NCBI RefSeq assembly: GCF_030848565.1
Contig: NZ_JAVDDV010000019.1
Location: 1 to 61,599 of the forward strand
Direction of reading: 5' to 3'
DNA from: Natronolimnohabitans sp. A-GB9
GTDB lineage: Archaea > Halobacteriota > Halobacteria > Halobacteriales > Natrialbaceae
Length of the DNA stretch: 61,599 nucleotides
This document shows positions 4,188-61,447 of this stretch, piece after piece. Made by a program: the position numbers and the translations under genes. The number at the start of each line of letters is the position of its first letter. Within the stretch, counting starts at the first letter, position 1. The notes beneath the pieces are model-generated. The model saw nothing but the letters and a program-made list of their open reading frames with translations, was not told the DNA's origin and made no database searches.

Positions 4188-6044
4188 TCAGTCGTGGCGC
4201 TCTTCGAACGCTCGGCGTTCTTCAGCGATCCGTGCTTCGAGTTCCTCGTCGTCGGGTAGCGGCCCGTAGTCGAACGACTCGAGGCCCCCACGACTCGAGC
4301 GGATGGCATCGCGTCGCTCGTCGGTCGCCGCGGCGTCGGCGGTGCCGTCGTCGGCGAGGACGACGCCGTACTCCTCTCGAGCGGCCGATTCGGAGACGAG
4401 GCCGCGTTCTACTTCCGTAGCGACGACTGCCGGGTCACGCTCGAGTGGGTCGCCGAGTCCGCCACCGCCGGCAGTACGGAAGACGAGTTTGTCGCCGGCC
4501 TCGACGGGAACGTTCTCGACCTTCGAGGGCAGTTCCTCCTCGGTGCCGTCGGTTCGGACGAGTTTCTTCTCGCTGGTCTGGGCGTGTTTCCCGCCGTCGA
4601 CGCCCCACGGGTAGGTGTGTGCGCGGTCGTCCTGGAACGTGATCGCGCCTGGTTCCTCGAACGTGTAGACCTTCGTGATGCCGTGGCCGCCGCGGAACTC
4701 GCCGGCGCCGCCGGTGTCGGTTCGAGTGCTGTACTCGTCGATCGAAAGCGGATAGTAGGCTTCCTGGTACTCCGCGGGAACGGTCCGGAACAGCGGCCAC
4801 CACGAGTGGCCATCGAGTCCGTCACCGCCCGGACGGGCCGGAATGCCACCGTAGAGGATCTCGAGCATCTGGAAGTCGTTACCTTCCGAGTCGGTCCCCG
4901 CGTAGACGAGGTTCGGCGACGTCCCGTAGCTGCCCGCGACCGAGAAGTCGTCGATGAGCTTCGAGAACGTGGCCTGCAGGACGTCGAACTGACGGGCCAT
5001 CATCGGCAGGCGGTTGCCAAGCGCCGCCGGGAACTCCGGCTGAACGACGGTCCCCTCGGGAAGGGTCACCTCGAAGAGGTCGTAGTAGCCGTCGTTGAAC
5101 GTCAGCAGGGGGTCGAAGGCCATGATGAGGAAGACCCCAGTGAACATTTTGAACATCTGCTCGTTCAGCAGGAAGTTCACCGTTCCTGGCACCTGCTCGT
5201 CCGTCCCGGTCCAGTCGAGGTAGACGGTGTCGCCCTCCCGGTAGATCTCGAGGTGGAGTTTGATCGGCCCGTTGCCCATCCCGTCGTCGTCGACGTAGTC
5301 CTCGAAGGTGTACCGCTCCCCTTCGGGGATGAACTCGTGGATGAGGTCGATCATCCCGTCGCGGGTGCGATCGAGGATGGCGTCGCAGGCGTCGACGTAC
5401 GTCTCCTTGCCGAAGCGATCGCAGAGTTCGTGGACGCGGGTCTCCGCGGCTTTCGTCCCCGCCGCCAGCGCCTTGATGTCGGCTTCGGCGTGTTCGGGAA
5501 GTCGGGTGTTGTGCGCGAACGTCTCGAGCAGTTCGCTGTCGAAGGTGCCCTCCTTGTAGAGTTTGACTGGCGGTAGTCGCATCCCCTCCTCGAAGATCGT
5601 CGTCGCCTGAACGGGCATGCTGCCCGGCGTCTTGCCGCCGACGTCCATCAGGTTCCCCCACTGGCTCGAAAAGCCCACGAGGTCGTCCTCGTAGAAGATC
5701 GGCCGCAACAGGAGCATGTCAGGGGTGTGTGAGACGGCGCCGGCGCACATGTAGGGGTCGTTCGTCGCGATCACGTCGCCCTCGGCGAGATCCTCGCGGT
5801 CGAACGGTGAGTTCTCGAGGATGGTGTCGATGGCCGAACCGAACTGTCCCATGACCATCCGCCCCTCGGCGTCCGCGATGAGTGGGAACTGATCGGACTG
5901 TTCGCGGATGACGGGGCTGATCGCCGTCGTTTCGACGACCCGGTCCATCTCGTGGCGGGTGTTCGAAAGCGTGCTCTCGATGATGTCCAGCGTGGTCTGG
6001 TCGACGTCGTGTTCGCCGACGAAATCAGGTGTCTCGGTGCTCAT
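4188..6044 (-). CDS. hyuB: Hydantoinase/oxoprolinase subunit B (HyuB)
   Basis: A 618-aa protein of the hydantoinase B/oxoprolinase family. The family signature lies near residues 95-110 (TNDPYMCAGAVSHTPDM), where Asp and His residues are likely metal ligands. Other family-like segments are QGSMPVQATTIFEEG-type sequence and, near the C-terminus, GGAGEFRGGHGITKVY and RTAGGGGLGDPLERDP. With HyuA it forms ATP-dependent amidohydrolases acting on hydantoins or 5-oxoproline. It overlaps the end of hyuA by 4 nt (ATGA), showing translational coupling and probably a 1:1 complex. It is clearly different from the two acetone-carboxylase alpha paralogues near 54.5 and 59 kb, which are more than 200 aa longer. 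Confidence 0.9.
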   Translation of the reverse strand: MSTETPDFVGEHDVDQTTLDIIESTLSNTRHEMDRVVETTAISPVIREQSDQFPLIADAEGRMVMGQFGSAIDTILENSPFDREDLAEGDVIATNDPYMCAGAVSHTPDMLLLRPIFYEDDLVGFSSQWGNLMDVGGKTPGSMPVQATTIFEEGMRLPPVKLYKEGTFDSELLETFAHNTRLPEHAEADIKALAAGTKAAETRVHELCDRFGKETYVDACDAILDRTRDGMIDLIHEFIPEGERYTFEDYVDDDGMGNGPIKLHLEIYREGDTVYLDWTGTDEQVPGTVNFLLNEQMFKMFTGVFLIMAFDPLLTFNDGYYDLFEVTLPEGTVVQPEFPAALGNRLPMMARQFDVLQATFSKLIDDFSVAGSYGTSPNLVYAGTDSEGNDFQMLEILYGGIPARPGGDGLDGHSWWPLFRTVPAEYQEAYYPLSIDEYSTRTDTGGAGEFRGGHGITKVYTFEEPGAITFQDDRAHTYPWGVDGGKHAQTSEKKLVRTDGTEEELPSKVENVPVEAGDKLVFRTAGGGGLGDPLERDPAVVATEVERGLVSESAAREEYGVVLADDGTADAAATDERRDAIRSSRGGLESFDYGPLPDDEELEARIAEERRAFEERHD

Positions 6045-8101
6045 TGGCGCTTCCCTCTGTTGATCTCGATGTTTCCATAGCGGTCGATAGTCGCGGTGTG
6101 ATCCGGCTGGACGACGACAGTCGAGTCGTCGTCGGTGACGATAGCCGGACCGTCGAGTTCGTTGCCCGGCCGCAGTTCGGTTCGGTCGTAGATCGGCGTC
6201 TCGTGGTGGTCACCGTCGAAGTAGATGTCGTTGGTGTCGATCTCGGCGTTGCTTGGGTCGGGGTCGGTCAGTTCCTCCTCTTCGATGGTCACGCCCTGGA
6301 CCGATCCTTTGCCGATGACCCGGAGGTTCGCGATCTCGAGCGGCGCATCGAGCGAAAACCCGAACTGGCGGTCGTGACGGGCCTCGAAGTCGTCTTTGAT
6401 CTCCGCGAGACCGGCCTCCCGAAGGTTCTCGATCGCGACCGGGATCGACATCTGGATGTCCTGTCGGAAGTACCGACACTCGGCGACGTAGTCGAACGAC
6501 TGATCGGTGTCGTCGACGCCTTCGGCGGCGAGCCACTCACTGGCCTCCGTTTCGAGTTCCTGTAGCTTCTCGTAGACGTCTTCCCCGTCGACGTCTGCCT
6601 CGGTCTCGAGGTAGGTCTCCGAGAACTCGTTTTGGACGTCCGAGGTGAGAAAGCCGAACGCGGACATAACGCCCGGTCCGGGCGGGACGATCAGTGGATA
6701 GGCATCCATCACATCCGCGAGGGCGGTGGCGTGCATCGGGCCGGCGCCGCCGAAGGCGACGAGTCCGAACTCGCGAGGGTCGTAGCCCCGTTCGACGGAA
6801 ACGACGCGAAGCGCGCCGTGCATGTTCTCGTTGACAATATCGAGGATAGCCTGTGCGGCCTCCTCGACTGTGCTCCCGCGCTCGTCGGCGATCGTCGCCA
6901 CGGCGTCGCGGGCGGCCTCCCGGTCGAGTTCCATTCGTCCGCCGAGGCGAACCGTCGGCGGGATCCGACCGAGGACGACGTTCGCGTCGGTGACAGTGGG
7001 TTCCTCCCCGCCCTGGCCGTAACACGCGGGTCCCGGATCCGCCCCGGCGCTTTCGGGCCCGACCTGCAGGGAGCCGTTCAGTTGGACGCGGGCAATCGAG
7101 CCGCCGCCGGCGCCGACCGTGTTCACGTCGACCGCCCGCGATTTGAACTCCCGGTAGCCGACTTTCGTCTGGCGGGTCGTCTCGGGCGTGCCGCCCTCGA
7201 CGAGCGACACGTCGGTCGAGGTGCCGCCCATATCGAGGGTCAACACGTCGGGAACGCCCTTCTTCGAGGCGATAGTCGCCGCCCCGACGACGCCGCCGCT
7301 CGGTCCGGATAGGGCGAGTTCGACCGGTCGGCGCTTGGCAGCCTCGGAACTCATCAGTCCGCCGTCGGACCGAACGACGTTCATCGTGGCCGTCGAGCCG
7401 GCCGCGGCGAGCGACTCGTCTAACTCCTCGAGATACTCGATGACCGTCGGCCGCGCGTAGTCGTTGATGACGGTCGTCAGCGTCCGTTCGTACTCGCCGT
7501 ACTCCGGAACGATCTCCGAGGAGATGGAGACGGGCAGCTCCGGGGCTTCCTCGGCGACGATTTCGCGGACGCGCTCCTCGTGGCAGGGGTTGAGATACGA
7601 GTTCAACAGCGCGACAGTCAACGACTCGACGCCGGCCGCCTCGAGGTCCCGAACCGCGTCTCTGACGGCCGCTTCGTCGAGTGGTTCCGTCTCTACACCG
7701 TCGGGTGCACTGATCGTGCCGGCGACGCCTCGTGTATCCACGAGGTCGGCGAGGGGCTCCGGTTTCTCCATATCCATCCACCCATAGAGCGGGCCGGGTG
7801 TCCACGCCCGTGCGAGGTGGAGGACGTCCTCGTGGCCTGCCGTCGTGATGAGTCCGACGCGCGCGCCCGTCTCCTCTAAGAGCATGTTCGTCACGACCGT
7901 CGTCCCGTGAAACAGGAGGTCGAGGTCGGAGACCGACGTCCCTGCCTTCTCCGTCGCCTCCTCGACGCCGCGTATCACCCCTTCCGAAGGGTTTGCGGGC
8001 GTCGAGAGGACCTTGTCGATCGTAAGTTCGTGTGTCGCTTCGTCGAAGACGATGACGTCCGTGAACGTCCCACCGACGTCGACGCCGAGATTATGTGTCA
8101 T
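6041..8101 (-). CDS. hyuA: Hydantoinase/oxoprolinase subunit A (HyuA)
   Basis: A 686-aa protein with the HyuA ASKHA-type ATPase fold. The N-terminal phosphate loop is DVGGTFTDV at residues 8-16, the second is LTLDMGGTSTDVSLVEGG and the third is LVAFGGAGPMHATALA. It couples ATP hydrolysis (substrate phosphorylation) to ring opening by the HyuB subunit. The length is standard for the family. It is the first gene of a four-gene operon. A TATA-like box and a perfect 16-bp palindrome lie within 80 nt upstream. A divergent HTH_10 regulator pseudogene lies beyond. The cluster may degrade N-methylhydantoin or another cyclic ureide. Specificity cannot be read from sequence. Confidence 0.9.
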   Translation of the reverse strand: MTHNLGVDVGGTFTDVIVFDEATHELTIDKVLSTPANPSEGVIRGVEEATEKAGTSVSDLDLLFHGTTVVTNMLLEETGARVGLITTAGHEDVLHLARAWTPGPLYGWMDMEKPEPLADLVDTRGVAGTISAPDGVETEPLDEAAVRDAVRDLEAAGVESLTVALLNSYLNPCHEERVREIVAEEAPELPVSISSEIVPEYGEYERTLTTVINDYARPTVIEYLEELDESLAAAGSTATMNVVRSDGGLMSSEAAKRRPVELALSGPSGGVVGAATIASKKGVPDVLTLDMGGTSTDVSLVEGGTPETTRQTKVGYREFKSRAVDVNTVGAGGGSIARVQLNGSLQVGPESAGADPGPACYGQGGEEPTVTDANVVLGRIPPTVRLGGRMELDREAARDAVATIADERGSTVEEAAQAILDIVNENMHGALRVVSVERGYDPREFGLVAFGGAGPMHATALADVMDAYPLIVPPGPGVMSAFGFLTSDVQNEFSETYLETEADVDGEDVYEKLQELETEASEWLAAEGVDDTDQSFDYVAECRYFRQDIQMSIPVAIENLREAGLAEIKDDFEARHDRQFGFSLDAPLEIANLRVIGKGSVQGVTIEEEELTDPDPSNAEIDTNDIYFDGDHHETPIYDRTELRPGNELDGPAIVTDDDSTVVVQPDHTATIDRYGNIEINRGKRQ

Positions 8102-46321: not shown

Positions 46322-48487
46322 ATGCGTCTGGACGTCTCCGACCTCCACGTCCGGTTTCGAACCCGTTCGGGAGCCGTCCACGCGGTCAACGGGGCCTCCT
46401 TTGCGGTCGATTCGGGCGAGATCGTCGGGCTGGTCGGCGAAAGCGGCTGTGGCAAGTCCGTCACGGCCCGCTCGATCGTCCGCCTCGAGGACCCGGGCGA
46501 GATCACAGGCGGCAGTATCGAGTTCGGTGGGACGGACCTGACGGGTGCCGACGACCGGACGCTCCGACGGCTTCGCGGGCGCGAACTCGCGATGGTGTTC
46601 CAGGACCCCGAGACGACGCTCAACCCGACCTACACCGTCGGCGAACAGATCGCCGAGGCCCTGCGGGTCCGTCGCGATCCCGACGATCAGCCGTTCCTCC
46701 GAGAACTGTTCGCCGGCGTGCGCTCGCGGGTTGGTTCGAAGCGGACCCGAAAACGAGTTCTCGAGTTGCTCGGCGAGGTCGGTATCCCCCGGCCCGAAGA
46801 CCGAATCGACGACTATCCCCACCAGTTCAGCGGCGGCATGCGCCAGCGGGTGATGCTCGCGATCGCACTCGCCCGCCGCCCCTCACTGCTCATTGCCGAC
46901 GAGCCGACGACGGCACTCGATACGACCACGCAGGCGGCGATCTTGGAGCGACTCGCAACGCTCAACGACGAGTACGGGATGGGGCTCTTGCTTATCAGCC
47001 ACGACCTGGGCGTCGTCTCCCAGCTGTGTGACCGGATCGTCGTCATGTACGACGGGGTCGTCGTCGAGTCCGGGCCGACTCGAGAACTGCTCTCGAGTCC
47101 CGCCCACCCCTACACGAAGGCGTTGCTCGGCTGTCTCCCCGGCCGATCCGAACCGGGCGAGACCCTGCCGACGGTCGGCGGGAGCCCACCTGACGGCTCC
47201 CCGCCGCCGGCCGGCTGCGTCTTCGTCGACCGGTGTCCGTTCGCCCGCAAGGACTGTCGGGAGGACAGCCAGCCGACCCTCAACCTCGAGGACGGTCGAA
47301 CCGTTCGCTGTGACGTGTCCGACGCACGGGAGGCCGACCTCGAGACCATGCGTGTGGCCACGGCTGCCGACCCGATCGACGGTCCGGGTCCGGATCTGAA
47401 TCCGGGAGATCGCGGACGGACGGCGGCCGTGGCGGTCGACGGCGGCGTCGAGACCGACTCGCCGACGGACTCCACGGCCGACCCGTCAGGAAGCGCCGTC
47501 GACAACCCCATCCTCGAACTCGAGGGCGTCACGAAGTCCTTCCGGACCACCGACGCGCTGGTCGACCGACTCCTCGGGACGGCCGAGCGACTGACCGCGG
47601 TCGACGACGTCAGCCTCGAGCTCCGGGCCGGCGAGACGCTGGGGCTGGTCGGCGAATCGGGCTGTGGAAAGTCGACGCTCGCCCGCGTGATCGCCGGCCT
47701 TGAGTCGCCGACGGCGGGCACGGTCAGGCTCGACGGCGAACCCGTCGACGACGTCGACTCGAGACGGGACGACCAGCTCGCGGACGTCGGCGTCGTCTTC
47801 CAGAACCCGGGGACGAGTCTCAATCCGAAGCGAACGGTCGGGGAGTCACTTGCCGAGCCGCTCCTCGAGGCCGGCTGGGGGGAGCGCCGTCGAGACGAGC
47901 GGGTCGAAGAGCTACTCTCGCTGGTCGAACTCTCACCGGAGTACGCCGGTCGGTACCCTCGCCAGCTCTCGGGTGGACAGCTCCAGCGGGTGGCGATCGC
48001 CCGTGCGCTGGCCGTCGAACCCGCCGTCCTGGTGCTCGACGAGCCGACGGCCGCCCTGGACGTCTCGGTCCAGGCGACCGTTCTCAACCTGCTCGAGCGA
48101 CTCCAGAGACAACTCGATCTGGCGTACCTGTTCGTCTCCCACGACCTCGAGGTCGTCCGTCATGTCGCGGACCGCGTCGCGACGATGTACCTGGGGCGAC
48201 TGCTGGAGGTCGGCCCGGCGAGCCAGGTCCTCTCGGAGCCGGCCCATCCCTACACGGCGGCGTTGCTCGAGGCGATTCCGGACAGCGAGGCGACGGCCGG
48301 CGGAGCCGGGCTGGCGGGCGAGCCACCGAGCCCAACCGATCCGCCGTCGGGCTGTGCGTTCCATCCGCGGTGTCCGATGGCCGACGACGACTGCGCGACG
48401 GTCGAACCGACCTGGGAGACCGTCGGGGACGCCAGCTCTCGGTGTCACTACGCGGACGAACGTGCTGACGAACACGACGAGAACTAA
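46322..48487 (+). CDS. Fused DppD-DppF-type ABC ATPase
   Basis: A 721-aa protein holding two full ATPase domains. The first has Walker A VGESGCGKSVTARSIV and signature FSGGMRQRVMLAIALARRPS, with ADEPTTALDT. The second, after an acidic linker near residues 350-400, has VGESGCGKSTLARVIAG, LSGGQLQRVAIARALAVEPA and LDEPTAALDV. Each ends with the Cys-rich oligopeptide-type motif (CVFVDRCPFARKDCRE and CAFHPRCPMADDDCAT). Most relatives encode two proteins, so the fusion fixes a 1:1 ratio. It directly follows the permeases. Confidence 0.93.
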   Translation: MRLDVSDLHVRFRTRSGAVHAVNGASFAVDSGEIVGLVGESGCGKSVTARSIVRLEDPGEITGGSIEFGGTDLTGADDRTLRRLRGRELAMVFQDPETTLNPTYTVGEQIAEALRVRRDPDDQPFLRELFAGVRSRVGSKRTRKRVLELLGEVGIPRPEDRIDDYPHQFSGGMRQRVMLAIALARRPSLLIADEPTTALDTTTQAAILERLATLNDEYGMGLLLISHDLGVVSQLCDRIVVMYDGVVVESGPTRELLSSPAHPYTKALLGCLPGRSEPGETLPTVGGSPPDGSPPPAGCVFVDRCPFARKDCREDSQPTLNLEDGRTVRCDVSDAREADLETMRVATAADPIDGPGPDLNPGDRGRTAAVAVDGGVETDSPTDSTADPSGSAVDNPILELEGVTKSFRTTDALVDRLLGTAERLTAVDDVSLELRAGETLGLVGESGCGKSTLARVIAGLESPTAGTVRLDGEPVDDVDSRRDDQLADVGVVFQNPGTSLNPKRTVGESLAEPLLEAGWGERRRDERVEELLSLVELSPEYAGRYPRQLSGGQLQRVAIARALAVEPAVLVLDEPTAALDVSVQATVLNLLERLQRQLDLAYLFVSHDLEVVRHVADRVATMYLGRLLEVGPASQVLSEPAHPYTAALLEAIPDSEATAGGAGLAGEPPSPTDPPSGCAFHPRCPMADDDCATVEPTWETVGDASSRCHYADERADEHDEN

Positions 48488-50065: not shown

Positions 50066-50899
50066 TCAGCGAACGCGCTCGATTCGATCCGCCGGCTCGA
50101 GGTCCGCCGCGACCTCCGGAGTGAGCCCGGCGATACTGTCGATGAAGTTCACCCGGTAGCTGGCCGGACCGTTGTACTCGAGGTCGGTTGCACGCTCGCC
50201 TGCGAGCCCGTAGGCGAGGGTTCCGTGTACGGCAGCGGTGAGGTCGTCCTCGATGCTTCCGGTAAAGGCCGCAAGCGTCGCCCCGAGCATACAGCCCGTA
50301 CCGACGACAGTCGAGAGCATCTCGTGACCGGCGCTTACGCGGTAGACACTGTCGGGACCGGCGACGACATCCTCGGCCCCCGACGCGACGACCGCCGCGC
50401 CGGTCGTCGCCGCGAGTGCCAGCGCCGACTCCGTGATCTCGTCGTACTCGCCGACGGACTCGACGCCTTTCACTTCGGCCTCCGCACCGGCCAGATGCGT
50501 GATCTCACCGTAGTTGCCCTTGATAGCGGCGAAGTCGATCTCGTCGAGTAAACTGGCGTGGACCTCCTCTCGAGTCGGTGTCGTCCCGGCGCCGACGGGG
50601 TCGAGGACGACCGGGACGCCCAGTTCGTTGGCCGTCCGACCCGCGGCGTGTAACGCCTCGACGTTCGAGTCGGTCATCCGACCGGTGTTGAGCAAGATCG
50701 CACCCGCGAGTTCGGCCATCTCGGGGGCCTCGCCGGGAGCGTCCGCCATTACCGGTAACGCCCCCCAGCTGAGGGTGACGTTCGCCAGGTCGTTTTTCGT
50801 CACCTCGTTCGTCAACTGCTGGACCAGCGGCTCGCAGTCGCGGACCGCCGCGATCGATTCCGACAGCGCCTCGCCGGTGCCGTCGATCTCCTCACTCAT
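50066..50899 (-). CDS. thiM: Hydroxyethylthiazole kinase
   Basis: A 277-aa kinase that phosphorylates the thiazole alcohol for thiamine salvage. Family motifs are QQLTNEVTKNDLANVTLSWG near residues 30-49, GAILLNTGRMTDSN, VVLDPVGAGTTPTREEVHAS and the catalytic VVGTGCMLGATLAAF near residues 200-214. It is part of a two-gene operon in which it follows thiE with an 8-nt overlap. The pair makes thiamine phosphate from salvaged thiazole and pyrimidine. Confidence 0.95.
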   Translation of the reverse strand: MSEEIDGTGEALSESIAAVRDCEPLVQQLTNEVTKNDLANVTLSWGALPVMADAPGEAPEMAELAGAILLNTGRMTDSNVEALHAAGRTANELGVPVVLDPVGAGTTPTREEVHASLLDEIDFAAIKGNYGEITHLAGAEAEVKGVESVGEYDEITESALALAATTGAAVVASGAEDVVAGPDSVYRVSAGHEMLSTVVGTGCMLGATLAAFTGSIEDDLTAAVHGTLAYGLAGERATDLEYNGPASYRVNFIDSIAGLTPEVAADLEPADRIERVR

Positions 50900-51542
50900 C
50901 GTCCACCACCTCCTCGGTGGCGGCCTCGAGGTCGCTCGTCGCAGCCGCCGGATCCTCGGCGGCGGTAATCTCGCTGATCACGGCGACGCCGGTCGCACCC
51001 GCCTCGAGAACGGGGGCCGCGTTCGCGGCGGTGATCCCCCCGATCCCGATGACGGGAATCGAGACGGCCTCGGTGATCTCGGAGATCAACTCGAGGCCCG
51101 TGCCGTCTTTCTCCTCGGGGACGTCTTTCTTCGAGTCGGTCCCGTAGATCGCGCCCACGCCGAGGTAGTCCGCGCCGGCGTCCTCGGCCTCGAGCGCCTC
51201 CTCGACCGTTGACGTCGAACAGCCGATCACGGCATCGGGACCGAGCAGTTCGCGGGCGACTGCGACGGGAAGGTCGGATTGACCGAGATGCACCCCGTCG
51301 GCGTCGATCGCCTGCGCGATATCGACTCGATCGTTGACGAGCAAGGCGACGTCCGCCTCGGCGGTGCGTTCACGCAGTTCACGGCCGAGTTCGTAGCGCC
51401 AGCGGGCGTCGGTGTCTTTCTCCCGAAGCTGGACGACGTCGATCCCGCCGTCGATCGCAGCCTCGACGATCTCGGTGGTACGCCGGCCCTCGGAGAGCGA
51501 TTCCTGTGTCACCAGATACGTCCGCCAGTTCTCCGGATTCAT
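50892..51542 (-). CDS. thiE: Thiamine-phosphate synthase
   Basis: A 216-aa TIM-barrel enzyme joining hydroxymethylpyrimidine diphosphate and thiazole phosphate into thiamine phosphate. Motifs include DVVQLREKDTDARW near residues 35-48, LLVNDRVDIAQAIDADGVHL, GQSDLPVAVARELLG, VIGCSTSTVEEA and IPVIGIGGITAANA. First gene of the thiE-thiM pair and overlapping thiM. No TPP riboswitch is obvious upstream, as is usual in haloarchaea. Confidence 0.95.
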   Translation of the reverse strand: MNPENWRTYLVTQESLSEGRRTTEIVEAAIDGGIDVVQLREKDTDARWRYELGRELRERTAEADVALLVNDRVDIAQAIDADGVHLGQSDLPVAVARELLGPDAVIGCSTSTVEEALEAEDAGADYLGVGAIYGTDSKKDVPEEKDGTGLELISEITEAVSIPVIGIGGITAANAAPVLEAGATGVAVISEITAAEDPAAATSDLEAATEEVVDDE

Positions 51543-52198
51543 AGGCGGTACCAGCGGGTGATCGGACTAAGCCGCTTCGGTCGGGGACGCGGCACGTGAG
51601 ATGTAGCGTCGTGCTGTTTGGCACGCATTCGTCACAACTTGGCCACGTTAGCCCCAGTTGTTGAGTGATCGAAGAGCGATCAATCTCGTCCATGCGGTCA
51701 TCGATGCGTCGATCATCGTAATCCCGAACCAACGAGAGAGGATTGTAAATCGCCTCGGGGTCAAGCCCCGGGCATTCTCCTAGACCGGTTGTAATACCGA
51801 CGTATTCTGACATAAAGCCACGGCTTCGAGTGTTACGACTGTTGCAAGTGTCACACCCTCACACCACCGTTTCAACTGTCGGCCTCAAACGAGGGTGAAC
51901 AGAACTGATTATCACACCCCACTGTTTCAAGTGTTAAGGTTCCGCTGCACTGAGAGTGTAAATTGCATGCAGCCAAATGGAGAATGGTGAAAGGTACCCG
52001 TTGCACGTCACCCCACACTCCTTCTCACGACGATCGTTGCAGTCGTTTTCGATCTGCCTCTGACCGCCAACTCAGGCGGTCGGGTAAATACGTTGTGCCT
52101 TAAAGCGCAACATATGTCACATACTGTCATGATATGTCGTACTCGTTCGTCAGTATTCGTGGTAATCACTAACTTGTAACACAGTATCAAAGGAAGTG
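51543..52198. other. Intergenic region with TTTCAA-type repeats and dyads
   Basis: No gene is well supported. A minus-strand frame from 51813 (MSEYVGITTGLGECPGLDPE onward) has non-shadow composition and may be a remnant, but it runs into thiE antisense and I do not call it. Three motifs, ACTGTTGCAAGTGTC, CCGTTTCAACTGT and CACTGTTTCAAGTGTTAA, lie at 51838-51939. A dyad ACATAT-N16-ATATGT lies at 52110-52137. Confidence 0.45.
52110..52137. promoter_or_regulatory. Dyad upstream of the acetone carboxylase operon
   Basis: ACATATGT (itself a perfect 8-bp palindrome) is followed by ATGATATGT, giving an ACATAT/ATATGT inverse pair with 16 nt between. It lies 62-89 nt before the beta-subunit ATG and may be a binding site for the local HTH_10 regulator. 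Confidence 0.4.
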
Positions 52199-54370
52199 AT
52201 GGCAAGTTCAGAAGACGACCCCGCAGAACGCCACAACGCAGAGATCCTGTCGATCGATGCCGGTGGGACGATGACGGACACGTTCCTCATGGACTCGGAC
52301 GGCGAGTTCACGGTGGGGAAGGCCAAGACGACGCCTGACGACGAGTCTCGAGGCTTCATCAGGTCCTCCCAGGACGCACTCGAGGACTGGAATCTGAGCG
52401 TGGAAGAAGGATTCCCGGACCTCGTGTCGACGGTCTACTCCGGGACCGCGATGCTCAACCGACTGGTCGAACGGGAAAGCGAAGTCGACGTCGGGATCCT
52501 CATCACTGGTGGGATGGAGGATACGCTCCGAATGGGGCGGGGCCGACAGTCCTACACCGGCTACTCCTACTCGGATCGGCTCCACGTCAACACGCACAAA
52601 CACCCCGAACCGCTGATCCCCCGCAATCGGATCCGCGGGGTGCGAGAGCGGATCGACGTCAAGGGCAACACGCTGGTTCCACTGTACGAAGACGGCGTCC
52701 GCGACGGTGTCAACGACCTGCTCGACCAGGGGGTCGACCACATCGTCGTGATGTTTCTCCACTCGTACAAAAACGAAGACCACGAACACCGGACCAAGGA
52801 GATCGCCGAGGAGATCATCGATGAGCGAGACGCCGACACGACGGTGATGCTTTCAAGCGAGTACTACCCGACGCTGAAAGAGTCCGAACGGTTGAACACG
52901 GTCACGGCGGAGGCGTTCGCCGCGGAGCCATCACGCGATCAGCTGTCGAACATCCAGGAGGCCGTCGACGAACAGGGCGGTGACGTCGGCGTTCGCGTAA
53001 TGGCGAGTCACGGCGGAACGATCGACATCCACGCGAACGAACTCGCGCGGACGCTGATCTCCGGTCCGATCGGCGGGATGATCGGTGCCAACTACTTCGG
53101 ACAGAAACTCGACTACGAGAACCTGGTCTGTACCGACATCGGTGGGACCAGTTTCGACATGGGCATCATCATCGACAACGACTGGCAGATCGATTACAGC
53201 CCGGAGATGGCACGCCTGCTCCTGTCGCTGCCGATGGTAAACATGGAGAGCGTCGGGGCCGGAACGGGCAGTTACGTCAGGGTGAACCCGACGTTCGACA
53301 AGATCGAACTCGGTCCGGAGAGCGCAGGTGACCAGGTCGGCGTCAGCGCGGTCGAAACCGACGTCGAGACGGTCACCGTAACGGACTGTCACGTCGCGAT
53401 GGGGTGGATCAACCCGGACAACTTCCTGGGCGGCGATATGCCGATCGACCGCGACGTCGCCGAGCAGGAGATCGAAGCACAGGTCGCCGAGCCACTCGAC
53501 ATGGGCGTCTACGAGGCCGCCCAAGGCGTCATCGACATCCTCGAGAGCAAACTTCGTAACGACCTCGAGGCCGTCGTGACCGGCGAAGGGTACGCCCCAT
53601 CGAACTTCAAGTGTCTCTCCTACGGCGGCGGCGGACCGGTGCATACGGCCGGTTACACCAAGGACCTGGGTTTCGACGAGGTGCTGATCCCCGAGTGGGC
53701 AGCCGCGTTCTCGGCGTTTGGCTGTGGGGCTGCCGACTACGAGTACCGCTACGATCAGACGACCAGTATCGACATCGACCCGGACCTCTCGATGCGAGAG
53801 GCGGCCGAAACCGCCGGCGCGGAGCTGACCGAAGTCTGGAAACGCCTCGAGCAGAAGGTCGTCAACGAGTTCGAAAACAGCAACATCGGCCGGGACGAGA
53901 TCGATTTCCAGTACCACATCCTCGGTCAGTACCAGGGACAGCTCAACAGCATCGACATCGAGTCGCCGGTCGGCCGCGCCGACACACCGGAGAAACTCGA
54001 GCGAGTGCTCGACACCTTCGAAGCAGGCTACCGGCGCCAGTACTCCGAGGAGGCCCGGTCGCCAGAGCTCGGACACACCATTACACAGGCGTCGGTCCGC
54101 GGCGTCCGGGACGTCGTCAAGCCGGAGATTCCGACTGAACAACTACAGGACACCGAGCCGCCCGAGGATGCATACAAGGGAAGCCGGGAAGCCTACTGGG
54201 ACGGCGAGTGGATGGAGACGGAGATCTACGATCTCCACGCTCTCCAGCCCGGAAACGAACTCAGCGGGCCGGCAGTCATGGAGGGCGCTGCCACGACGTA
54301 CACGCTGCCACCGGACTGTGAAACGAGACTCGACGAGCATCGCGTCCATCACCTCACGAGAACCGAGTGA
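52199..54370 (+). CDS. acxA: Acetone-carboxylase-type beta subunit (HyuA family)
   Basis: A 723-aa HyuA-family ATPase subunit. ATP loops are SIDAGGTMTDTFLM near residues 18-31, VCTDIGGTSFDMGIIIDN and CLSYGGGGPVHTAGYTKDLG. Compared with HyuA at 6041-8101 the loops and length differ, and the following alpha and gamma genes identify it as the beta subunit of an acetone-carboxylase-like complex. In bacteria this complex turns acetone, bicarbonate and ATP into acetoacetate and AMP. The start is ATG at 52199, preceded by AGGAAG. A GTG directly upstream is also possible. The substrate (acetone or another small ketone) is inferred. Confidence 0.85.
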   Translation: MASSEDDPAERHNAEILSIDAGGTMTDTFLMDSDGEFTVGKAKTTPDDESRGFIRSSQDALEDWNLSVEEGFPDLVSTVYSGTAMLNRLVERESEVDVGILITGGMEDTLRMGRGRQSYTGYSYSDRLHVNTHKHPEPLIPRNRIRGVRERIDVKGNTLVPLYEDGVRDGVNDLLDQGVDHIVVMFLHSYKNEDHEHRTKEIAEEIIDERDADTTVMLSSEYYPTLKESERLNTVTAEAFAAEPSRDQLSNIQEAVDEQGGDVGVRVMASHGGTIDIHANELARTLISGPIGGMIGANYFGQKLDYENLVCTDIGGTSFDMGIIIDNDWQIDYSPEMARLLLSLPMVNMESVGAGTGSYVRVNPTFDKIELGPESAGDQVGVSAVETDVETVTVTDCHVAMGWINPDNFLGGDMPIDRDVAEQEIEAQVAEPLDMGVYEAAQGVIDILESKLRNDLEAVVTGEGYAPSNFKCLSYGGGGPVHTAGYTKDLGFDEVLIPEWAAAFSAFGCGAADYEYRYDQTTSIDIDPDLSMREAAETAGAELTEVWKRLEQKVVNEFENSNIGRDEIDFQYHILGQYQGQLNSIDIESPVGRADTPEKLERVLDTFEAGYRRQYSEEARSPELGHTITQASVRGVRDVVKPEIPTEQLQDTEPPEDAYKGSREAYWDGEWMETEIYDLHALQPGNELSGPAVMEGAATTYTLPPDCETRLDEHRVHHLTRTE

Positions 54371-54372
54371 TC

Positions 54373-54471
54373 GAGAGCGGGCGACCGCTCTCGTACGGAG
54401 ATGCATCCGCTCTCACCGATTCCGTTCCCGAGGAACGATATCGGGATCGGAGGGCGGATGCACCGTACGAG
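54373..54471 (+). promoter_or_regulatory. Alternative RNA hairpins between beta and alpha genes
   Basis: GAGAGCGG (54373-54380) can pair with CCGCTCTC at 54385-54392 as a tight hairpin or with a second CCGCTCTC at 54407-54414. A second stem pairs CTCGTACGG plus TGCATCCGC (54390-54411) with GCGGATGCA plus CCGTACGAG (54454-54471). The first hairpin's 3' arm overlaps the start of this long stem, so the structures compete. Function inferred: processing, attenuation or subunit-ratio control. Confidence 0.5.
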
Positions 54472-54525
54472 CCCGCATCTGGCTCGAAACAGATGACGAC
54501 GGAACCCACGGATACCGACCAAACT

Positions 54526-57048
54526 ATGAGTTCACAACATCAGCAGGAGGAAAGCTACCCACGAATGCGACGCGAGAAGGAGCAGGTTCGCGAGCAACAA
54601 AAAGAGGGTGAAGGGATCGGCTGGGATGGCCAAACGCTTCGCGAACAGTTCGAAGCCCTCGAGAAGAGGACGGAAGAGACGGGCCACTACGCCGGGTTCG
54701 ATCGCCTCGAGCTAAAAGAAGAGCGGCCGATCGAGTACGAGCAGATGTTCGCCCAGCTCCGTGGTGACCTCGTTACGGCGCGTGAAACGTCGAAAGAGGT
54801 CGCCGCGACGCCGATCGTCGAGCAGGAAGGCGAGCTCTGTTATGGCCTCTTTACCCCCGAGGGAGACTCCATCGCTGTCTCGACGGGGATCATCGTCCAC
54901 ATTCACACGATGAGCGAGGCCATCAAGTACATGATCAACCACGATTACGAGGAAAGCCCCGGAATCGAACCCGGGGACGTCTTCGTCAACAACGACACCC
55001 ACGTCGGCGACGTCCATGCCTGTGACATCATGACACTCATCCCCATCTTCCACGATGGGGAGCTCGTCGCCTGGGCCGGTGGGGTAAACCACGTCATCGA
55101 CACCGGCGCCATCGGTCCCGGGAGTATGAACGTCTCGCAGGCCTCCCGCTTCGGTGACGGCGCCCAGTATACGGCCCGCAAGATCGGCGAAGACCTGACG
55201 CTGTACAACTCCTGGAAGAACGACTACCCGGACAAGACTCGAACGCCAGACTTCCTGAAACTCGACGAACGGACGCGGATGACCGGCTGTCTGATGATTC
55301 GAGACGCCGTCAAAGACATCATCGACGAGTACGGCGTCGAGCAGTTCAAACAGCTCTCGCGGGAGGCGATCGAGGACGGCCGCCGCGGGTTCAGAAACCG
55401 TATCGAGAAGACGATGCTCCCGGGTACGTATCGGGGCGCGTCGTTCGTCGACGCCCTCTACGAAGGGCAAGATAACCTGACCCGTGCGTACGCCGACGAG
55501 AACCACCTCATGCACGCGCCGTCGGAACTCCACGTCCGGGAGGACGGGTCGTTCCAGGTCTCGTTCGAGGGCGCCAACAAGTGGGGCTGGCACCCCTACA
55601 ACTGTACGCCGGCGGCGATCCAGGGCGGGATCTGGGTGATGCTCACCCAGACCGTCATCCCCAACTCGAACGTCAACGACGGCGCCTACTACAGCTGTGA
55701 CTTCCACCTCCCGGTCGGCTCGTGGGCCAACACCCAGAACACAGAGACGGCCCACGCCTACGCGTGGCACTTCCTGGTGTCGGCGTGGGCCCCGCTCTGG
55801 CAACACCTCTCTCGAGGCTACTACGCCCGGGGCTTCTGGGAAGAGATCAACGCCGGCAACGCAAACACCTCGAACTGGCTGCAAGGCGGCGGCATCGATC
55901 AGTTCGACAAACTCCACGCCGTCAACTCATTCGAATCGGCCTGTGAGGGCGTCGGCGCCCGCTACGTCGAGGACGGCGAACCCCACGCCGCAGCGATCTG
56001 GAACCCAGAAGGCGACATGGGTGACGCCGAAGTGTGGGAGATGACCGAACCGCTCCCGTTCCTGGGTCGCGCGGTCAAACCCAACACCGGAGGGGCGGGC
56101 CGGCGTTCGGGCGGTGCCGGCTTCGAGTCGATGCGGACGGTCAAAGACGTCAGCAGGTGGTTGCTCTACGAGATGGGCAACGGATACATGACGAGCGACG
56201 GCGGCCTCTTCGGCGGTTATCCCGCTGCTTCGGGATACATCCTCAACGCTCACGACACCGACCTGAAAGAGCGCTTCGAGAACCAGGACGACTACCCACA
56301 ACACGACCTCGATCCCGAGAGCGGCGAGTTCGAATCCAAGATCGACGGCGAGATCACCCGCGAACCGAAGGGGATCAGCACGCCCAAGGAGTTCGACGAC
56401 TACGACATGTACCTGAACTACCTCCGCGGTGGGTCGGGACTGGGCGATCCCCTCGAGCGCGATCCCGAGGACGTCCTCGAGGACATCCACGACGGTTACG
56501 TGTTGCCACGCCACGCCGAAGCCGCCTACGCAGTCGTCGTCGAGAAAGTCGACGACGAGGCACAGCACAACTCCGCCGTCCACGGGGAGTTCGAGGTCGA
56601 CGAAGAAGCGACGGCCGAACTCCGCGGTGAGCGTCGCGCCGAGCGGGCGAAGAAGGCCCAGCCGGTTTCCGAGTGGTACGAAGAAGAACGCGACCGCATC
56701 CGCAACGAAGAAGCCCTCATCGACGACGTCAAAAAGACCTACGAGAGCAGTATGCGAATGAGCGCGCAGTTCGCCGCGTTCTACCGGGAGTTCTGGGAGC
56801 TTCCGGAGGAGTTCTCGTTCACGCTGAGCGAGAAAGCAGAGAAATCGCTCACGAACCGCTTCGACACCGGTCTCAAGCAAAAGTGGAAGAACCCGACGAA
56901 AAGCCACGAGACGTGGCTCGGCGTCGGCCGCGACGACGAACCCCAGGTTCCTTACACCTGGACGAGCGATCGCTCGATTCGAGACCTCGAGACCCCCGAT
57001 GCAACGTTCAGCGAGCCACCACGAGAAACGGCAACGGACGACGACTGA
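54526..57048 (+). CDS. acxB: Acetone-carboxylase-type alpha subunit, copy 1 (HyuB family)
   Basis: An 840-aa alpha subunit. Its HyuB-type core includes GELCYGLFTPEGDSIAVSTG, the likely metal segment FVNNDTHVGDVHACDIMTLI and a C-terminal GGSGLGDPLERDPEDVLEDI. Such subunits carry Mn and carboxylate the activated ketone. I place the start at MSSQHQQEESYPR to match the second copy (MSSTDQTKAE). MTTEPTDTDQ at 54493 and a GTG at 54367 overlapping the beta stop are alternatives. It follows beta after 155 nt and precedes gamma by 17 nt. By eye most residues match the copy at 58937. Confidence 0.87.
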   Translation: MSSQHQQEESYPRMRREKEQVREQQKEGEGIGWDGQTLREQFEALEKRTEETGHYAGFDRLELKEERPIEYEQMFAQLRGDLVTARETSKEVAATPIVEQEGELCYGLFTPEGDSIAVSTGIIVHIHTMSEAIKYMINHDYEESPGIEPGDVFVNNDTHVGDVHACDIMTLIPIFHDGELVAWAGGVNHVIDTGAIGPGSMNVSQASRFGDGAQYTARKIGEDLTLYNSWKNDYPDKTRTPDFLKLDERTRMTGCLMIRDAVKDIIDEYGVEQFKQLSREAIEDGRRGFRNRIEKTMLPGTYRGASFVDALYEGQDNLTRAYADENHLMHAPSELHVREDGSFQVSFEGANKWGWHPYNCTPAAIQGGIWVMLTQTVIPNSNVNDGAYYSCDFHLPVGSWANTQNTETAHAYAWHFLVSAWAPLWQHLSRGYYARGFWEEINAGNANTSNWLQGGGIDQFDKLHAVNSFESACEGVGARYVEDGEPHAAAIWNPEGDMGDAEVWEMTEPLPFLGRAVKPNTGGAGRRSGGAGFESMRTVKDVSRWLLYEMGNGYMTSDGGLFGGYPAASGYILNAHDTDLKERFENQDDYPQHDLDPESGEFESKIDGEITREPKGISTPKEFDDYDMYLNYLRGGSGLGDPLERDPEDVLEDIHDGYVLPRHAEAAYAVVVEKVDDEAQHNSAVHGEFEVDEEATAELRGERRAERAKKAQPVSEWYEEERDRIRNEEALIDDVKKTYESSMRMSAQFAAFYREFWELPEEFSFTLSEKAEKSLTNRFDTGLKQKWKNPTKSHETWLGVGRDDEPQVPYTWTSDRSIRDLETPDATFSEPPRETATDDD

Positions 57049-57065
57049 CACGGAGGTGACCGACA

Positions 57066-57566
57066 ATGCCAGAATCATACCCACGCGAACACATCGAAGA
57101 CCTCGTCGACGACAACCTGGAGTGGAATCAGCTACACGACATGATGAGCGACTACAAGGACGCGGACCGATTCCAGAAGGTCCGTGACGTCCTGCAAGAA
57201 CGGGTCGACTGGGACGACCCGATCATCATCCCGTACGCGGAACACCTGTACGTCGTCGCCAAGCCCGACGACCGATGGGTGATCAAGTGTGACTGCGGCC
57301 ACGAGTTCTGCGAGCACGACGAGAACTGGAAGGCGGACGCACTGATCAACGTCCGCGATTCGGAGGAAGAGTACCTCGAGATCTACCCGGAGGACATGCA
57401 CCCACACCCAGACTACATGGAGCTTCGAGAGTTCTTCTGTCCGGGTTGTAACACCTTGCTCGAGGTGACGAACGTCATGCCGGGCTATCCGCTCATCCAC
57501 GAGTTCGAACCCGACATCGAGACGTTCTACAACGAGTGGATCGAAGAGCCGATCCCGACGGCGTAA
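57066..57566 (+). CDS. acxC: Acetone-carboxylase-type gamma subunit
   Basis: A 166-aa protein. It carries a probable zinc site: Cys75, Cys77 and Cys82 in IKCDCGHEFCEHDENW, and Cys125 and Cys128 in FFCPGCNTLLEV. The rest fits the small gamma subunit of acetone and acetophenone carboxylases (NVRDSEEEYLEIYPEDMHPH, PDYMELREFFC). It starts 17 nt after the alpha stop codon. Its presence, with an order of beta, alpha, gamma, is the best evidence that the operon is a ketone carboxylase and not a hydantoinase. Confidence 0.88.
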   Translation: MPESYPREHIEDLVDDNLEWNQLHDMMSDYKDADRFQKVRDVLQERVDWDDPIIIPYAEHLYVVAKPDDRWVIKCDCGHEFCEHDENWKADALINVRDSEEEYLEIYPEDMHPHPDYMELREFFCPGCNTLLEVTNVMPGYPLIHEFEPDIETFYNEWIEEPIPTA

Positions 57567-57794: not shown

Positions 57795-58475
57795 ATGCTC
57801 AGAATCGAATTCCGAATCGATCTCGCAGGTGTTCTCTCACGGCTATTTACCGTCGACGAGCGGATCGAAAGCGCCGAGATCGATAACGCACTTCCGGTCG
57901 CCGGCGACTCCGTCTTTCTCTTCTTGAGCGCACAGTTCGGTTCGAGTATCTCCGACGAGCGTCTCTCGGAACAGCTGCCCGACATCCGAATCGTCGATAT
58001 AACACAGGCGGACGTCGCCCAACACACGTACTATCTTCGCGTGCTCGCGGACGTTTCGGACGCCTCCGTACTCTCGCTGTTGACTGAGAACCTGGCGATT
58101 CCACACCGGATCGTCGGGAAAGACGCCACTCTCGATATCGTCGCCTCGGTTCGGGACTGGAACCACCTCAAGGAAGTCGCCAGCAGCATCGAGGCGGAAC
58201 ACGGCTCGCTGGAGTTGATCGGGACGACCCAGACGGAGGGAATGGGGTTCCCGCTTGGCAGCAACAAGATCAAACACAGTATGTCCGGGAAGTTGTCCGA
58301 AGAGCAGTTGGAAGTGCTCGAGACGGCCTATCAGATGGGGTATTTCAAAGTGCCACAGGAAGTGACCGCAGAAGAGATCGCAAGCGAACTGGACATCAGC
58401 AGATCGACACTGAGCGCACGACTTCGCCGCGTCGAACACAACTTCTGTGCGCTGCTGTTTGGACCACAAGAATGA
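57795..58475 (+). CDS. HTH_10 regulator linked to the carboxylase genes
   Basis: A 226-aa regulator. The N-terminal 165 residues form a sensor-like region of the type seen with HTH_10 domains. The C-terminus is the HTH_10 domain: LSEEQLEVLETAYQMGYFKV, PQEVTAEEIASELDISRST, LSARLRRVEHNF. It lies 228 nt after gamma and overlaps the next gene by 4 nt. By position it is a good candidate to activate the carboxylase operon in response to the ketone (inference). It differs from the HTH_10 protein at 9300 in its N-terminus. Confidence 0.88.
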   Translation: MLRIEFRIDLAGVLSRLFTVDERIESAEIDNALPVAGDSVFLFLSAQFGSSISDERLSEQLPDIRIVDITQADVAQHTYYLRVLADVSDASVLSLLTENLAIPHRIVGKDATLDIVASVRDWNHLKEVASSIEAEHGSLELIGTTQTEGMGFPLGSNKIKHSMSGKLSEEQLEVLETAYQMGYFKVPQEVTAEEIASELDISRSTLSARLRRVEHNFCALLFGPQE

Positions 58476-58870
58476 CGACCGTTATCATCGTCAACGCCGA
58501 TGACCAACAGCCCGCTATCAGGGAAATCCTCGAGTCAGTCGTAGACGACGGCGAAACGGTCTATTTCCTTCGCCTCCCGGCTATCCGGTGTCTCGGCTCG
58601 TTGATCCAGGAACTGAATCCGATGTGCAACTACGACGTCGAGTACACCATCGACTGTCTCCCGGAGGGATACGACGTCACCGACCTCGTTCGGTTCGCCA
58701 TGGACGTCGATGCGACCAGGATCTGTATCGGGATCACCGATCGGACGCTTACCGGCAAAGTACAGATCGACGATCTCACCCAGTCGATCCTCCTTCACGA
58801 GTCGATTTCGGGGGACTTCGTCGTCGGCAATCACGCGATTATTCTGGAGGAACTCGAGTATGACAGCTAA
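58472..58870 (+). CDS. UspA-fold small protein
   Basis: A 132-aa protein. It starts with a TVIIVNADDQQPAIREILES strand-helix unit and has a degenerate nucleotide loop RICIGITDRTLTGKVQIDDL, so it looks like a shortened UspA-fold protein. The first codon overlaps the regulator's stop as ATGA, so the two are translationally coupled. It may modulate the regulator or sense nucleotide state. No function is known. Confidence 0.65.
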   Translation: MTTVIIVNADDQQPAIREILESVVDDGETVYFLRLPAIRCLGSLIQELNPMCNYDVEYTIDCLPEGYDVTDLVRFAMDVDATRICIGITDRTLTGKVQIDDLTQSILLHESISGDFVVGNHAIILEELEYDS

Positions 58871-58936
58871 CCCGACCAACGTTCACAGAAACGGATCAGA
58901 TCCGTCGATCAAAACCGAATCACGGAGCACGAATTC

Positions 58937-61447
58937 ATGAGTTCGACCGACCAGACCAAAGCCGAAAAACGACGTGCCGAAGCGAAGCGAGAAAAGGAAA
59001 CAGTGCGAGCGAAACGCCGACGGGGAGTCGGAATCGGCTGGGACGGACGGACGCTGCGCGAACAGTTGGCAGAACTCGAGGATAAGACGGAAGCGACGGA
59101 CCACTACGGTGGCCTGTCGGAACTGGCATTGAAAGACGACGACCCCATCCGATACGAGCAGTTGTACTCGCGCCTCCGTGGCGACCTCGTTACGGCGCGT
59201 GAAATATCGAAAGAGGTCTCCGCGACGCCGATCGTCGAACAGGAAGGCGAACTCTGTTATGGCCTTTTCACCCCCGAAGGCGACTCCATCGCCGTCTCGA
59301 CGGGGATCATCGTCCACGTCCACACGATGAGCGAAGCGATCAAGTTCATGATCAACCACGACTACGAAGAAAATCCCGGGATCGAACCCGGAGACGTCTT
59401 CGTCAACAACGATCCACACGTCGGTGACGTCCATCCGTGTGACCTGATGACACTCATTCCGATCTTCGAAGACGGAGAACTCATCGCCTGGGCCGGTGGA
59501 GTGAATCACGTCATCGATACCGGCGCCGTCGGTCCCGGAAGCATGAACGTCTCACAGGCCTCGCGTTTCGGTGACGGCGCCTATTACACGGCCCGTAAGA
59601 TCGGTGAGAACTTCAGATTATACAACTCCTGGAAGAAAGAATATCCAGCCAAAACGCGAACCCCGAAGTACCTGAAACTCGACGAACGGACGCGGATGAC
59701 CGGCTGTCTGATGATCCGGGATTCCGTAAAAGAGATCATCGAGAAAACCAGCGTCGAGACGTTCAAGCAACTCGCTCGAGAAGCCGTCGAAGACGGCCGT
59801 CGTGGGTTCCGGAACCGAATCAAACGGACGATGTTACCCGGCACGTATCGTGGCGTCTCGTTTGTCGACGCCCTCTACGAGGGCCAAGAGCACGTCACGC
59901 GTGAATACGCAAACGAGAACCACATTATGCACGCGCCGTCGGAACTCCACGTTCGGTCCGACGGGACATTTCAGGTCTCGTTCGAGGGCGCCAACAAGTG
60001 GGGCTGGCACCCGTTCAACTGTACGCCTGCCGCGATTCAAGGCGGAATTTGGGTGTTGCTCACACAGACGGTAATCCCGAACGAGCGGGTCAACGACGGT
60101 GCCTACTACGCCTGTGACTTCCATCTCCCAGTTGGCTCGTGGGCTAACACCCAGAACACGGAGACGGCCCACGCCTACTCGTGGCACTTCCTCGTCTCCG
60201 CCTGGGCCCCGCTCTGGCAACACCTCTCTCGAGGCTACTACGCTCGCGGCTTCTGGGAGGAAATCAACGCCGGCAACGCAAACACCTCGAACTGGCTGCA
60301 AGGCGGCGGTATCGACCAGTTCGATAAGCTCCACGCCGTCAATTCCTTCGAATCGGCCTGCGAAGGCGTCGGCGCTCGCTACGTCGAGGACGGAGAGCCA
60401 CACGCGTCGGCGGTCTGGAATCCGGAAGGTGATATGGGCGACGCCGAAGCCTGGGAACGAGTCGAGCCATTACCGTTCCTCGGGCGTGCGGTCAAACCCA
60501 ATACGGGTGGTGCGGGCCGTCGTGCAGGTGGTGCCGGCTTCGAATCGCTGCGGACGGTCAAAGACGTCAGCAGGTGGTTGCTCTACGAGATGGGCAACGG
60601 CTATATGACCAGCGACAGTGGCCTCTTTGGCGGCTATCCCGCTGCTTCGGGATATATCCTCAACGCTCGAGATACCGATCTCGAGTCGCGTTTCGAAACC
60701 ACCGACGACTATCCACAACACGACCTCGATCCCGAAAGCGGCGCGTTCGAATCCAAAATCGACGGGGAGATCGCCAGACGCCCCGAAGGGATCAGCACAC
60801 CGAAAGCGTTCGACGATTACGACCTATATTTGAACTATCTCCGTGGTGGGTCTGGACTCGGAGACCCACTCGAGCGTGATCCCGAAGCCGTCCTCGAGGA
60901 CATCCACGACGGCTACGTACTGCCACGCCACGCCGAGGATGCGTACGGTGTCATCGTCGAGAAAGTCGACGACGAGGCACGGCACAACTCCGCCGTCCAA
61001 GGCGAGTTCGAACTCGATCGGGAGGCGACTGAGACCCGCCGTCGAGAAGCCCTCGAAGAGCGAGCCGAGACAGCACAACCGGTTTCGGAATGGTACGACG
61101 AGGAACGAGAGCGCATCCGCAACGAAGAAGCCCTCATCGACGACGTTAAAAAGACCTACGAGAGCAGTATGCGGATGAGCGAGGAGTTCGCGACGTTCTT
61201 CCGCTCCTTCTGGGACTTACCGGACGACTTCGAGTTCGACCTTAGCGAGAAGGCAGAACGGTCTCTCGATAATCGATTCGATTCCGGCCTTCGTCCGATG
61301 TGGGACAACTACACTCGAGGACACAAAACGTGGCTCGATGTAGACGACGAACCGTACGTCCCTTACACGTGGTCGAACACTACCATTCGGGATCGTTCTG
61401 TTTCAGAACCCTCCAGTAGCGATCCCGAGCAGGCAGCTAATGATTAA
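58937..61447 (+). CDS. Acetone-carboxylase-type alpha subunit, copy 2 (HyuB family)
   Basis: An 836-aa paralogue of the alpha subunit at 54526. The core is nearly the same: GELCYGLFTPEGDSIAVSTG, FVNNDPHVGDVHPCDLMTLI (Pro for Thr and Pro-Cys for Ala-Cys), then HLPVGSWANTQNTETAHAYS and GGSGLGDPLERDPEAVLEDI. It has no beta or gamma of its own in the window. It starts 66 nt after the UspA-like gene. It may replace copy 1 in the complex to change substrate or expression, or be a recent duplicate. It ends 152 nt before the window edge with no further gene seen. Confidence 0.87.
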   Translation: MSSTDQTKAEKRRAEAKREKETVRAKRRRGVGIGWDGRTLREQLAELEDKTEATDHYGGLSELALKDDDPIRYEQLYSRLRGDLVTAREISKEVSATPIVEQEGELCYGLFTPEGDSIAVSTGIIVHVHTMSEAIKFMINHDYEENPGIEPGDVFVNNDPHVGDVHPCDLMTLIPIFEDGELIAWAGGVNHVIDTGAVGPGSMNVSQASRFGDGAYYTARKIGENFRLYNSWKKEYPAKTRTPKYLKLDERTRMTGCLMIRDSVKEIIEKTSVETFKQLAREAVEDGRRGFRNRIKRTMLPGTYRGVSFVDALYEGQEHVTREYANENHIMHAPSELHVRSDGTFQVSFEGANKWGWHPFNCTPAAIQGGIWVLLTQTVIPNERVNDGAYYACDFHLPVGSWANTQNTETAHAYSWHFLVSAWAPLWQHLSRGYYARGFWEEINAGNANTSNWLQGGGIDQFDKLHAVNSFESACEGVGARYVEDGEPHASAVWNPEGDMGDAEAWERVEPLPFLGRAVKPNTGGAGRRAGGAGFESLRTVKDVSRWLLYEMGNGYMTSDSGLFGGYPAASGYILNARDTDLESRFETTDDYPQHDLDPESGAFESKIDGEIARRPEGISTPKAFDDYDLYLNYLRGGSGLGDPLERDPEAVLEDIHDGYVLPRHAEDAYGVIVEKVDDEARHNSAVQGEFELDREATETRRREALEERAETAQPVSEWYDEERERIRNEEALIDDVKKTYESSMRMSEEFATFFRSFWDLPDDFEFDLSEKAERSLDNRFDSGLRPMWDNYTRGHKTWLDVDDEPYVPYTWSNTTIRDRSVSEPSSSDPEQAAND

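Follow-up and report, generated by a model that had tools for sequence, protein, structure and literature searches.

A predicted haloarchaeal acetone carboxylase locus with a conserved second α-subunit gene

Introduction

The acetone carboxylase of Xanthobacter autotrophicus Py2 (structures 5SVB, 5SVC and 5M45; PMC5543143) is built from three subunits. In its proposed mechanism, a single ATP bound in the β subunit phosphorylates both acetone and bicarbonate, the products pass through a channel that nucleotide binding has opened, and the carbon-carbon bond is formed at a metal site in the α subunit (PMC5543143). The acetone carboxylase of Aromatoleum aromaticum is of the Fe type (PMC10865871). 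Acetophenone carboxylase (5L9W; PMC5214803) also performs ATP-dependent ketone carboxylation and has HyuA-, HyuB- and distant γ-type subunits, but it contains two HyuA-like subunits together with an additional ε subunit. As far as the literature searched shows, acetone carboxylases have been studied in bacteria alone. A search for haloarchaeal acetone carboxylase or growth on acetone, with most subscription journals outside its reach, returned nothing specific; where PMC10547907 mentions archaea, it does so through a generic hydantoinase/acetone carboxylase annotation. Here, we describe a haloarchaeal locus that encodes counterparts of all three acetone carboxylase subunits and compare it with these systems.

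Results

Gene content of the locus

The DNA analyzed here (the window) is an entire 61,599-bp contig from a haloarchaeal genome of 4.3 Mb in 72 contigs. A sequence-only reading of the contig had assigned the β, α and γ subunits of an acetone carboxylase-type enzyme to positions 52199-57566, and three adjacent, co-directional open reading frames on the plus strand do occupy that span. The gene group extends beyond it, however, because positions 57795-61447 encode a regulator, a small protein and another complete α subunit. The reading had overlooked this additional α gene, as well as an acyl-CoA ligase/epimerase pair that is commonly linked to the locus in relatives. The features of the locus are:

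52100..52118, plus strand: upstream block TTAAAG...ACATATGTC, TATA-like with a possible operator, from an alignment of 19 regions
52155..52174, plus strand: upstream block ATTCGTGGTAATCACTAACT, candidate operator or core promoter element, from 19 loci
52199..54370, plus strand: β subunit (AcxA-type, HyuA-like), 723 aa, predicted to bind ATP and phosphorylate the substrates
54493..57048, plus strand: α1 subunit (AcxB-type, HyuB-like) with the predicted Mn/Fe catalytic site, 851 aa, identified by its ligands and its match to 5M45_A
57066..57566, plus strand: γ subunit (AcxC-type, Cys4 zinc), 166 aa, identified by PF08882 and its match to 5SVB_C
57795..58475, plus strand: HTH_10 regulator with a weak Bat-type sensor domain, identified by PF04967, PF15915 and synteny
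58472..58870, plus strand: conserved α/β protein of 132 aa, identified by structural model and synteny; its gene overlaps the regulator gene by 4 bp
58937..61447, plus strand: α2, another full-length α subunit, which shares 81% identity with α1 and retains all metal ligands

The α1 frame is open from a GTG at 54367 to 57048, and the codon-usage score makes the ATG at 54493 its likeliest start. Only 17 bp separate α1 from γ. The β-α-γ order is that of bacteria, as the sequence-only reading had claimed: 50 of 57 fetched bacterial loci have the same arrangement, and each of the remaining seven is short of one outer gene among the matches within the fetched stretch. The genes to the left of β are seemingly unrelated to the carboxylase; they include one for a protein resembling a double-ATPase peptide-type ABC transporter protein (46322-48487) and thiamine genes that read as ThiM- and ThiE-like (50066-51542). 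The contig also carries a second HyuA/HyuB pair of the hydantoinase/oxoprolinase type on the minus strand (4188-8101), which shares about 24-31% identity with acetone carboxylase subunits.

Relationship to acetone carboxylases

Each of the three proteins was most similar to the corresponding acetone carboxylase subunit among solved structures. The best matches were 5SVB_B for β (phmmer, 777 bits, E = 1.8e-232), 5M45_A for α (phmmer, 834 bits, E = 1.5e-249) and 5SVB_C for γ (169 bits, E = 7.9e-49). Acetophenone carboxylase was the runner-up by a large margin, with 362, 134 and 36 bits for β, α and γ, respectively; caprolactamase 6YRA scored 233 bits with β and 45 bits with α, and hydantoinase 7HK5 scored 218 and 79 bits. 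Judged by these scores, the matches to acetone carboxylase are far beyond chance. The β subunit contains the Pfam domains Hydantoinase_A, Hydant_A_N and Hydant_A_C, and α contains Hydantoinase_B. The γ protein scores 146.6 bits with Acetone_carb_G (PF08882), for which the cut-off is 21; this score removes the concern that it might belong to an unrelated zinc family.

The NCBIfam library gave a different picture: none of its acetone carboxylase models matched, and the best matches were to Apc models. These matches, together with the HyuA-, HyuB- and γ-type subunits held in common, could point to an acetophenone carboxylase-type enzyme. However, the Apc models scored 396.6, 165.6 and 37.3 against curated cut-offs of 1500, 1500 and 250, the cluster has one HyuA-like gene rather than two, and ApcC lies outside the acetone carboxylase clade (see below), which makes this assignment very improbable. 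The γ gene had been put forward as the distinguishing feature of the locus. It does set the locus apart from a hydantoinase/oxoprolinase pair, but it cannot by itself separate acetone from acetophenone carboxylases because ApcB is itself a distant relative within the γ family. At the sequence level, the two enzymes are told apart by the single HyuA-like subunit, the match scores and the phylogeny.

We then compared residues of known function. The metal ligands of the Xanthobacter α subunit (E89, H150, D153 and H175; PMC5543143) are invariant in 16 α1, 11 α2 and 13 bacterial α sequences, and so are the gating residue E85 and tryptophans W401, W408, W438 and W479. The first-sphere ligands are also reported to be identical in the Fe-type Aromatoleum enzyme (PMC10865871), and the haloarchaeal metal may be either Mn or Fe. 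The window's γ protein keeps all four zinc cysteines (CxC and CPxC), and thus both sets of ligands that the sequence-only reading had singled out for alignment are intact. In β, F405 and N578 (5SVB; the PDB chain runs 10 above the numbers in the paper) are conserved in 17 haloarchaeal proteins, and S391 is replaced by Thr and M571 by Gly in all haloarchaeal sequences compared. These four residues move on nucleotide binding in the Xanthobacter enzyme, where the M571 contact is made by the backbone carbonyl (PMC5543143).

Phylogenetic analysis of β placed the haloarchaeal proteins in one group with the bacterial acetone carboxylases (SH-aLRT 99). Outside this group lay, in order, a divergent Sinorhizobium protein, ApcC with a Rhodococcus Apc-type protein, and the HyuA/oxoprolinase types. 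The last included the window genome's own two HyuA paralogues, and the HyuA encoded at 4188-8101 grouped with an oxoprolinase. This is a quick tree with long outgroup branches, and its deep order is less sure than its exclusion of the hydrolases. A placement of β with oxoprolinases or hydantoinases, which the sequence-only reading had considered damaging to its proposal, is not observed. The Hydantoinase_A/B domains of β and α, and the public labeling of both as "hydantoinase/oxoprolinase family" proteins, could still be taken to indicate a hydrolase of that type. Given the linked γ gene, the acetone carboxylase metal ligands, the tree, the score margins and the presence of a separate HyuA/HyuB pair on the contig, we consider this interpretation barely tenable.

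Distribution and neighboring genes

The α type found here (at least 76% identity) occurs in about 16 of 391 genomes sampled across the class, and a divergent type with 43-46% identity to α2 occurs in five more (G387, G288, G390, G252 and G230). Some members of this divergent, acetone carboxylase-like group have an in-frame TGA in the matched frame. PF08882 relatives of any kind were found in 38 genomes, and both this α type and PF08882 relatives are absent from the one further genome of the genus in the sample. The distribution is patchy, and several haloarchaeal loci are plasmid-borne. The gene set is neither unique to this genome nor rare in haloarchaea, and NCBI/PGAP already names γ "acetone carboxylase subunit gamma" on plasmids of Natronorubrum and Halococcus.

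A cassette with the order β-α1-γ-[AMP-forming acyl-CoA ligase, epimerase-like VOC protein]-regulator-small protein-α2 is present in Natrinema, Haloterrigena, Natronomonas, Halovenus, Salinibaculum, Halorientalis, Natronorubrum and Halococcus, with the bracketed pair absent from some cassettes. The plasmids of Natronorubrum aibiense (NZ_CP045489.1) and Halococcus dombrowskii (NZ_CP095007.1) carry the regulator, small protein and α2 as in the window; N. aibiense keeps the ligase and VOC genes, unlike the window, and H. dombrowskii has a Zn alcohol dehydrogenase gene immediately before β. This dehydrogenase could yield acetone from 2-propanol. A protein of the TIGR00366 family, the family of AtoE-type short-chain fatty acid transporters, is encoded near three relatives' loci. 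As predicted from sequence, the ligase, transporter and dehydrogenase would fit the use of acetoacetate, the latter two being leads. When the linked ligase was sought elsewhere in the window's genome, all 18 matches were distant paralogues (best, 38% identity); the genome also encodes three CoA-transferase domains.

The ligase and VOC genes that many relatives carry between γ and the regulator also raise the possibility of a related ketone carboxylase that acts mainly on butanone or a higher methyl ketone. Its product would be converted to acetyl-CoA and propionyl-CoA, and α2 would widen or shift the substrate range, given that a pair of diverged α subunits would fit the use of two substrates. 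However, the match of the VOC protein to methylmalonyl-CoA epimerase (96.8 bits) falls under the curated cut-off of 115, the pair is missing from the window, and the nearest characterized enzymes are acetone carboxylases. We regard this substrate assignment as improbable.

The second α subunit

In a tree of 40 α sequences, α2 forms a single clade (81/99) adjoining α1, and both lie within a fully supported haloarchaeal clade. Pairwise dN/dS was about 0.06 (0.071/1.22) and 0.04 (0.088/2.31) for α2 and 0.09 and 0.06 for α1, these being rough values from two comparisons with synonymous sites near saturation. Twenty-five positions separate α1 from α2, none of them a metal ligand; the differences include A79S near the helix over the metal site and I154L beside ligand D153, and several lie in the C-terminal extension. 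A second α gene is absent from all 57 bacterial loci examined. Among the 16 sampled genomes with this α type, 12 carry both α1 and α2 and four carry a single α, and therefore α2 is dispensable for the enzyme. It is nevertheless a maintained gene under strong purifying selection across several families.

The regulator and small-protein genes lie upstream of β in three single-α loci (L053, L056 and L057, from two Haloquadratum genomes and another Haloferacaceae genome). This arrangement suggests that α2 may be the remnant of a second regulator-small protein-β-α-γ copy. It would also be expected if α2 were an unused dosage copy or a decaying leftover of such a tandem duplication, which would be compatible with the enzyme assignment, and the α2 of Halorientalis regularis is indeed truncated to 630 aa (L042:16386-18278). 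Yet every other α2 compared is full length, and the clade-specific character of α2 and the selection acting on it make an idle copy unlikely. The best explanation from the sequences is that α2 is a working catalytic subunit alongside α1 and uses the same β and γ, either in an alternative complex or in a mixed α1/α2 core. We propose more tentatively that α1 and α2 are both competent and compete for or share β and γ, which could provide two ketone specificities or two metal or expression regimes.

A single chimeric α follows β on a Natronorubrum bangense plasmid (L041:10142-12649) and in Natribaculum breve (L046:10148-12655), with α1-specific residues in front and α2-specific residues behind. 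The β and chimeric frames are both open, and the genes between α1 and α2 (γ, regulator and small protein) are gone; no PF08882 protein was found anywhere in either genome. Deletion of the γ region would follow from homologous recombination between α1 and α2 as direct repeats. The crossover sites differ between the two genomes, and thus two separate recombination events are likely. In the halophilic archaeon J07HX64, the β and α frames are broken (L055:5524-12584). The locus has decayed in some lineages, as these broken frames and the truncated H. regularis α2 illustrate.

Regulator and upstream elements

The regulator contains an HTH_10 domain (PF04967, E = 9.3e-17) and a weak match to a Bat-type sensor domain (PF15915, E = 6e-4), and its gene is a conserved neighbor in related loci. 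The small protein has no Pfam match, and its model shows an α/β fold (pLDDT 91.7). Foldseek returned a weak match to 1TQ8 (universal stress protein Rv1636; TM about 0.4-0.5), which is too weak for the protein to be named a universal stress protein.

Upstream of β, the block TTCGTGRYAAYNACTAAC lies 43-44 bp ahead of the start codon in 19 of the 19 loci compared, and alignment of the 19 upstream regions identified a second block, TTAAA...ACATATGTC, farther upstream. Conservation of the two blocks (52100-52174) extends over at least five haloarchaeal families, and one block is roughly palindromic and keeps a fixed distance to the start codon. The exact block at 52155-52174 occurs once in the window's genome. 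This block may serve the regulator as its operator, or it may belong to the core promoter, perhaps of a leaderless transcript. The neighboring HTH_10 protein probably controls expression by acting at the conserved element upstream of β.

Discussion

Our analysis indicates that this locus most probably encodes a haloarchaeal ATP-dependent Mn/Fe acetone carboxylase, with α2 joining the shared β and γ subunits in a complex that would be either an alternative one or a mixed one. If it works like the Xanthobacter enzyme, β would use ATP to phosphorylate first acetone, in its enolate form, and then bicarbonate. Both intermediates would travel along a channel inside the protein to the Mn(II)/Fe(II) site of α, where they would be joined to form acetoacetate; γ would hold a structural Zn. 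Acetoacetate would then be converted to acetoacetyl-CoA and on to acetyl-CoA, with activation by the linked ligase where it is present and by other ligases or CoA transferases elsewhere.

The haloarchaeal and Xanthobacter enzymes agree in their three subunits, in the ligands of the metal, in the cysteines that bind zinc and in the key gating residues. They differ in that the haloarchaeal proteins are only about 46-55% identical to bacterial homologues, the haloarchaeal α has longer ends, and an HTH_10 regulator and a second α adjoin the haloarchaeal locus. The enzyme is a further member of a known family, its γ subunit having already been recognized in public records, and the conserved two-α cassette is the part that sets it apart from described systems. 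We suggest that the β and α genes labeled merely hydantoinase/oxoprolinase in public records be renamed. The two-α clade, the single-α loci and the α1/α2 recombinants form a comparison set for ketone and metal preference, and some haloarchaea are predicted to grow on acetone or 2-propanol.
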